A stretch of 41,759 nt of DNA from an uncultured Nitrospirota bacterium (GTDB lineage: Bacteria; CG2-30-53-67): the NCBI GenBank assembly GCA_947259355.1, contig CAMYMF010000022.1:5591-47349 (forward strand), given 5' to 3'. The first letter of the stretch is position 1. Each line of letters begins with the position of its first letter. Both the position numbers and the translations under genes were made by a program. This document shows, one piece after another, positions 1,819 to 2,319 of this stretch. The notes below the pieces were generated by a model that ran no database searches, was not told the DNA's origin, and worked only from the letters and a program-made list of their open reading frames with translations.

Positions 1819-1841
1819 CCGATGGCGGAGAGGGAGGGATT
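1819..1841 (-). repeat. Detached duplicate of the tRNA-Ser(GGA) 3' end (direct repeat copy)
   Basis: These 23 bp are identical to 2228-2250, which cover the 3' acceptor strand, the CCA and part of the T arm of tRNA-Ser(GGA) plus three flanking bases. The duplicate has no 5' half, so it is not a tRNA gene. The two copies bracket about 390 bp that holds modules A, B and C. A tRNA 3' end repeated at the far edge of inserted DNA is what att-site duplication by a tRNA-targeting element looks like; tandem duplication of the tRNA tail is the alternative. Confidence 0.75.
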
Positions 1842-1849
1842 ACGCTTAC

Positions 1850-1938
1850 CGCTCCTGCGCTGCCCTCCGGAGCGCCGCGTGCCCCGCTTTGCATCTCTAT
1901 GCCGCCTGTGGCGGCAACATATCAGGGAATCTTGGGGT
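1850..1938 (-). repeat. tRNA-Ser-associated two-hairpin module, copy A
   Basis: Read on the minus strand: box ACCCCAAGATTCC (1938-1926), 10-nt spacer, hairpin 1 GCCGCC-ACA-GGCGGC (1915-1901), a 26-nt linker containing AAAGCGGGGCACGCGG, then hairpin 2 with stem CGCTCC/GGAGCG (1874-1869 with 1855-1850) and a 13-nt loop, followed by GGTAAG. It then runs directly into the duplicated tRNA-Ser 3' end. Strongly similar in linker and hairpin 2 to copy D. No plausible protein is encoded across it, and function is unknown. Confidence 0.7.
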
Positions 1939-1946
1939 GCGCTTTC

Positions 1947-2037
1947 GCTTCCTTCACTCCGTTGCGGAAGCCCGCGCGTCCCCCCTTACTTCATCCTTGC
2001 CGCACAAGGTGGCAACAACACTAAGGAATCTTGGGGT
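1947..2037 (-). repeat. tRNA-Ser-associated two-hairpin module, copy B
   Basis: Minus strand: box ACCCCAAGATTCC (2037-2025), 11-nt spacer, hairpin 1 GCCAC/GTGCGGC-type stem (2013-1999, extendable by two A-T pairs, one G-U), 27-nt linker with AAGGGGGGACGCGCGG, hairpin 2 stem GCTTCC/GGAAGC (1971-1966 with 1952-1947) with a 13-nt loop, then GAAAG. It abuts the box of copy A. Stem sequences differ from the other copies but pairing is maintained. Confidence 0.65.
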
Positions 2038-2061
2038 CGAACCTCCGAAGCTTGACTTTTC

Positions 2062-2154
2062 CCCGCCTTCTGCTCCGCTTCCGGCGGGCCAGTCGCCCGC
2101 TTAACGTTTACTCATGTAGCCTCCGGCTACTCTGACATCAAGGTATCTTGGGGT
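2062..2154 (-). repeat. tRNA-Ser-associated two-hairpin module, copy C
   Basis: Minus strand: box ACCCCAAGATACC (2154-2142), 11-nt spacer, hairpin 1 GTAGCC-GGA-GGCTAC (2130-2116), 27-nt linker containing TTAAGCGGGCGACTGG, hairpin 2 stem CCCGCC/GGCGGG (2088-2083 with 2067-2062) around a 15-nt loop, then GGAAAAG. It is the copy closest to tRNA-Ser(GGA), about 77 bp beyond its CCA end. The stems differ from A, B and D at several paired positions. Confidence 0.68.
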
Positions 2155-2231
2155 CTCACCCTCCCTCCCGAATCTGAAGGATGCCCCTGACCTTCTCGAC
2201 ATCATCACACGCCATAGCCACAGCCAACCGA

Positions 2232-2319
2232 TGGCGGAGAGGGAGGGATTCGAACCCTCGGTAGCTTTCACTACACACGATTTCCAGTCGTGCACCTTCG
2301 GCCTCTCGGTCACCTCTCC
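2232..2319 (-). tRNA. tRNA-Ser (anticodon GGA)
   Basis: An 88-nt class II tRNA with encoded CCA. The acceptor stem is GGAGAGG pairing with CCTCTCC, the anticodon loop is CTGGAAA within the stem ACGA/TCGT, there is a long variable arm (GTAGTGAAAGCTAC), and the T arm GAGGG-TTCGAAT-CCCTC. GGA reads UCC/UCU. The gene starts 37 nt after the tadA stop and is probably co-transcribed with it. Its last ~20 nt recur at 1819-1841. Confidence 0.97.

Follow-up and report, generated by a model that had tools for sequence, protein, structure and literature searches.

The last nucleotides of a tRNA-Ser(GGA) gene occur a second time downstream of that gene, which raises the question of how the copy arose and what the DNA enclosed between the two copies is. 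The locus was studied within the window, i.e., the whole stretch of 41,759 nucleotides that was analysed (G000:C22:5591-47349, in a metagenome-assembled genome of 3.1 Mb). A sequence-only reading had taken the arrangement for the footprint of site-specific insertion at a tRNA 3′ end and had suggested either a very small mobilised or relic element or growth by tRNA-tail duplication.

The copied tRNA tail and its surroundings

A repeat search of the window confirmed an exact direct repeat, identical over 23 of 23 positions, with its copies 409 bp apart from start to start (Table 1); the chance of an exact 23-mer within 500 bp is about 1e-9. Because ARAGORN places tRNA-Ser(GGA) on the minus strand over the first copy, the repeat can be assigned to the 3′ end of the tRNA plus flank: it comprises the final 19 nt of the tRNA (AATCCCTCCCTCTCCGCCA), from a T-loop A through CCA, and 4 nt of 3′ flank (TCGG). 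The absence of an integrase or any gene from the enclosed DNA was likewise borne out, as the ORF list for the interval (1842-2227) holds no credible gene and just mechanical ORFs of 77-108 aa, which we take as chance. The minus strand carries, in succession, gyrA, an ORF, serS, tRNA-Ser(TGA), tRNA-Ser(GCT), tRNA-Arg(ACG), tadA, tRNA-Ser(GGA), the interval, ffs and dnaX. At the gathering threshold, tRNA and SRP RNA were the only Rfam families in the window, and at E<=10 nothing relevant appeared, the permissive matches being tRNA echoes or weak chance matches. A phage or plasmid origin was rejected for want of any match.

The bin holds two dnaX-ffs loci, one in the window (compared over positions 1-1560) and the other at G000:C52:20000-25957 (L128). 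Because the DnaX encoded on C52 is 93% identical to that of the related genome G001 (192 aa) and 62% identical to that of the window, one of the two contigs is possibly misbinned; either the window contig or C52 may be misplaced, or the locus may be duplicated.

Table 1. Features of the tRNA-Ser(GGA) unit and the related unit in the window.
Feature	Position	Strand	Basis
tRNA-Ser(GGA), intact, source of the tail	2232..2319	-	ARAGORN and Rfam
Direct repeat copy 1, 19 nt of tRNA end and 4 nt of flank	2228..2250	-	Repeat search
Anti-tail GGGAGGGAGGG, then TGAGA; pairs with the tail over 11 contiguous positions (one G-U)	2154..2169	-	Helix and permutation test, MFE and centroid
Module type 2, 3′ end GGGGAAAAGTC	2054..2153	-	Covariance model R1, 65.5 bits
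Linker, 3′ end GGTTCGA, resembling the 5′ half of a T-arm	2037..2053	-	Sequence
Module type 1	1939..2036	-	R1, 88.1 bits
Module type 1, directly abutting the tail copy	1842..1937	-	R1, 97.9 bits
Direct repeat copy 2, the tRNA-Ser(GGA) tail copy with CCA	1819..1841	-	Repeat search
Module type 1 of a second, degenerate unit behind tRNA-Ser(GCT)	3309..3405	-	R1, 100.7 bits
Degenerate tRNA-Ser(GCT) tail copy, 2 mismatches, CCA lost	3290..3307	-	Sequence
tRNA-Ser(GCT), preceding the second unit	3491..3584	-	ARAGORN
ffs (large SRP RNA), next downstream gene	1578..1751	-	Rfam RF01854

Structured modules between the copies

A covariance model built from 18 sequences (R1) matched three modules in the interval and a fourth behind tRNA-Ser(GCT), the latter with a degenerate tail copy; this second unit, like the anti-tail described below, had been overlooked. 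Across the whole 41.8-kb window, R1 gave no significant match beyond these four modules. The module starts with 5′ YCCCAAGATACC, followed by a hairpin (GCYGCC..GGCRGC), AAGCGGG, a second hairpin that contains an internal loop, and 3′ GCGTA, and in type 2 the 3′ end is TCAA. A YCCC/GGGR stem encloses one hairpin and links the 5′ end of the module to the base of the second hairpin. When this stem is included, 95% of the cells of 20 pairs are paired, and double changes occur in 11 of the 20 pairs, shuffles giving 4.1 and slid controls 0-5. At two loci of the relative G004 (L211 and L226), a further insert of several tens of nucleotides lies in the first hairpin, which amounts to nesting within the module. 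Just ahead of the window module that starts at 3405, a palindrome at 3409-3440 (CTCGGGGATTCGAACCCGAG) resembles an inverted T-arm.

An inverted copy of the tail precedes the modules

In most units, here and in the relatives, the module is preceded by a purine-rich string with TGAGA(A) behind it; the string is an inverted copy of the T-arm/acceptor strand of the unit's own tRNA. This anti-tail changes with the tRNA: it is GAGGTAGGAT for tRNA-Ser(TGA), with the tail ATCCTACCTC, AGAGAGAGGG for GCT and CGA, and the string given in Table 1 for the GGA unit of the window, whereas the GGA unit of G003 has GGGGGGG facing a tail of CCCCCCC. Since the anti-tail is able to pair with the tail, a closed hairpin presenting the tail and CCA can form.

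For comparison, we examined the tRNA-linked repeats (TLRs) of E. coli at the tyrT/tyrV, argVYZQ, lysT to lysQ and lysV loci. TLRs are described as lying in tRNA or rRNA operons, with one to several units per locus, and as closing with 18-19 bp identical to the 3′ end of the tRNA or rRNA that precedes them (PMC8144298). The best contiguous helix with the own tail has 8-11 pairs in 11 of the 12 clade units and beats all other tails tested in 9 of 12. Own against reassigned tails gave permutation p-values of about 5e-5 for the clade and 0.008 for E. coli, which are somewhat optimistic because the best-contiguous-helix score was chosen after a first score had looked weak; that first score, an ungapped 10-nt one, is too coarse for tails rich in C and T. 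A strong contiguous anti-tail is lacking from the G004 unit and from several of the E. coli units. For one E. coli tyr unit, three units of G003 and the unit of the window, MFE and centroid folds both contained the closing helix. Some MFE folds of G001 units show no preference for it, these stretches having been cut slightly inside the anti-tail.

When the full tRNA was folded together with the unit, the tail copy paired with the tRNA's own 5′ strand, and an interfering or switch-like role is therefore possible. Because the spacers between tRNA and anti-tail do not align across genera, as judged by eye, the anti-tail is either maintained or remade each time.

Units and empty sites in related genomes

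The module was found in 6 of 290 genomes, all of one family, and was absent from the other 284 tested, two of which belong to the same class. In these draft assemblies, we scored 24 copies in the genome of the window (G000), 67 in G001, 14 in G002, 12 in G003, 45 in G004 and 32 in G005. One to several units per tRNA lie in the tRNA-Ser cluster between serS and dnaX, where in the relatives they follow the TGA, GCT, CGA and GGA genes in a pattern that differs tRNA by tRNA. G003 carries one unit each after TGA, GCT and GGA; in G001, units follow TGA and CGA, and the tails point to GGA as well, whose tRNA lies off the contig; the single unit of G004 follows CGA. G005 has a CGA unit with a shortened tail copy and the beginning of a TGA unit at a contig end, and no unit lies at those tRNA-Ser loci that were read from G002, G006 and G007. 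An empty site in relatives had been named as the informative comparison, and in G002 and G004 tRNA-Ser(GGA) is indeed followed directly by ffs, with neither tail copy nor module.

Tail copies are exact over 19 nt of tRNA in the window (23 bp in total) and over 18 of 18 in the units of G001, G003 and G004; apart from the degenerate GCT unit of the window, those of all four genomes have no mismatch, and they always start with ATCC. Because the tail copy of full units starts there, the type 1 module lies between T-arm positions 58 and 59 (GGTTCGA^module^ATCC), and the GGTTCGA half of the T-arm precedes it in most relatives. At the G001 locus L121, two otherwise near-complete copies of tRNA-Ser(CGA) (541-720 and 1538-1733) are each split at A58/A59 by one module, beside an intact tRNA-Ser(CGA) at 846-934. 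In a background set of 158 tRNAs, drawn from the loci of a TadA scan (distant homologues, with no best segment above about 62% identity) and from the loci of close relatives, tail copies were confined to the relatives' loci save for one match with 3 mismatches that resembles another tRNA.

Modules dispersed away from tRNAs

Modules also occur away from tRNAs, where they lack any tail. These dispersed copies are nested in at least four other inverted-repeat elements, with the host junction at a constant A^A position. One of these elements is a MITE (a short inverted-repeat element) ending in GACGGACTTTTTACGAAGCCGTC: many copies read ..GAAGCGTA^ACGCAGCAG.. and are free of the module, while others carry it at that point. 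Empty and filled MITE sites of this kind suggest that the module behaves as a precise insertion and is apparently mobile. Insertion is the likelier direction because the module-free MITE is also present in G094, G154 and G177, which do not belong to the family, the module itself being found within the family only. AAGCGTA is common to host and module at the junction, and exchange through a short repeat is therefore possible as well.

At L006, L007, L009 and L167-L186, the module lies within distinct MITE-like inverted-repeat families with the ends GTAACTACTCAGGT, GACGGCTTCGTAAAAAGTC, GCAATATTCGGGCTAGC and CTTGACCCC/ACCCTGGAATCC. Short modules of 70 nt stand at many contig ends of G004 and G005. 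No transposase or other mobilising enzyme was noticed around the module copies read; an ORF of 382 aa between two module clusters (G000:C3, L139:1685-2833, minus strand) had no Pfam match.

Origin and possible role of the unit

We consider it likely that 2169-1819 is a TLR-type fold-back unit that carries a lineage-specific, apparently mobile insert and is probably transcribed together with tRNA-Ser(GGA); most likely, it is neither protein-coding nor an integrase-borne island. The tRNA tail would have been duplicated as a fold-back, and a mobile module would then have inserted into the T-loop of the tail copy. We propose that, because the anti-tail would be kept occupied by its own tail copy, the real tRNA would not be invaded and the unit would persist. 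Its most likely role would be that of a tolerated hitch-hiker that is excised from the pre-tRNA transcript as a structured RNA. Growth by tRNA-tail duplication, as suggested earlier, came close to the mark, and the idea of a very small mobilised or relic element holds in that the module behaves as an insertion, with MITE sites both with and without it, but not as a relic integrase island. The footprint of integrase-driven insertion was not upheld, given the missing integrase, the recurrence tRNA by tRNA, the matching inverted anti-tail and the same layout in E. coli TLRs.

Integrases typically target T-loop and tail sequences, and one might have placed a very small circle at the tRNA tail, the element supplying the new tail and the old one marking its far end. 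This would fit the exact identity of the tail copy to the tRNA, the empty sites in relatives and the module-like contents, but none of the units holds an integrase or other gene, modules away from tRNAs have no tail, which suggests movement between loops outside tRNAs with no tRNA tail involved, and the tail of every unit matches its own tRNA. As it would also leave the tRNA-specific anti-tail unexplained, which integrase attachment sites do not have, we regard this origin as very unlikely. Even less credible is an intron at T-loop 58/59, self-splicing or removed by enzymes, that would make the split tRNA-Ser(CGA) copies of G001 functional genes: these copies are otherwise near-complete and interrupted by just one module at A58/A59, and the YCCC/GGGR stem draws both module ends together, but an intact gene adjoins them, one copy has lost two Gs from the T-stem and the other has a non-tRNA 3′ end. 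Dispersed modules, moreover, sit in inverted-repeat elements rather than in genes, and we know of no intron class this small that would fit.

Whether the unit acts as a regulatory RNA is a different matter, and we are doubtful here rather than dismissive. As a processed sRNA or a co-transcriptional switch, it would tune the maturation of tRNA-Ser(GGA) by pairing of the anti-tail with the real tail or with its copy. The tRNA-specific complementarity kept across genera although spacers do not align, the covariation of the module, the competing fold predicted for the full transcript and the E. coli rRNA-operon TLRs, for which expression and in vitro binding to Hfq and CsrA are reported (PMC8144298), are consistent with such a role. 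Against it, units vary in presence tRNA by tRNA and are missing from the tRNA-Ser loci read in three genomes, the complementarity could be a by-product of copying, and no function is known for the tRNA TLRs of E. coli (PMC8144298). How the module moves is a question compatible with the TLR-type explanation that we prefer. It could be a non-autonomous single-strand transposon (IS200/IS605 type, PATE-like) with fold-back loops as its targets, the TLRs being its insertions at tRNAs, as the constant junction, the internal hairpins, the TCAA end of type 2, the many dispersed copies and the tRNA insertions without clear target duplication would suggest. We hold this to be unlikely: neither TnpA nor an autonomous copy was found around the copies read, and in the MITEs the module 3′ end bears a repeat of the host AAGCGTA, so that deletion or copying between short repeats is possible instead.

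Comparison with known systems

REP/BIME, PATE and IS200/IS605-derived mini-elements resemble the module in being short, hairpin-bearing, multi-copy and gene-free with precise junctions, but no associated transposase was seen here, and the module sits within other fold-backs and within tRNA copies. With tRNA-integrated genomic islands, the unit shares the direct repeat of a tRNA 3′ end; it differs in having no integrase, no cargo, a tRNA-specific anti-tail and a size of about 0.2-0.4 kb. A duplicated tRNA end is not necessarily an integrated island, which is relevant to island-finding methods.

The closest likeness is to E. coli TLRs, which have been known since 1978 and have no known function outside the three rRNA-operon copies studied (PMC8144298). 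They include the tyrT/tyrV repeats and RttR (Egan and Landy 1978; Rudd 1999, both as cited in PMC8144298) and, as far as PMC8144298 and a limited open-access literature go, have been described from enterobacteria only. Both groups of units lie downstream of a tRNA and have an 18-19 nt copy of its own tail from the same T-loop nucleotide, an inverted anti-tail, internal hairpins and tandem copies. E. coli tails likewise start with ATCC, and the anti-tail is found in most tyr, arg and lys units; the likeness extends in the tyr units only to the motifs TGAGAA and GGTTCGA, the latter ahead of the insert (GGGGAAGGATGAGAAG..GGTTCGA). In lysQ, an inverted T-arm comes first and a direct but split one after it (GATTCGAACCTGC-AGCAGGTTTGA). 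R1 had no match at E<=1 in the E. coli tyrTV locus (L136), where the inserts seem unrelated by eye, and homology to the E. coli TLR core was rejected. Because the tails start alike and R1 misses the E. coli insert, layout and breakpoint are common to E. coli and the clade, whereas the filling is not. The units described here thus differ in the sequence and fold of the insert, in having been seen at tRNA-Ser genes only and in their unrelated lineage; their insert is also dispersed among other inverted-repeat elements, with empty sites.

We claim TLR membership by architecture and not by common descent. What appears to be new is this architecture in an unrelated uncultured family, with a new and apparently mobile insert. 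As a tentative proposal, possible rather than probable, an undescribed mobile RNA-structured mini-element of 70-100 nt may insert precisely into fold-back loops, including the T-loop at 58/59, and the TLRs of distant bacteria may have been made repeatedly, by fold-back duplication of the tail and loop insertion of each lineage's own element. Given a shared architecture, differing inserts at an identical T-loop nucleotide, complementary arms specific to the tRNA and empty sites, the origin of TLRs becomes testable by comparison.
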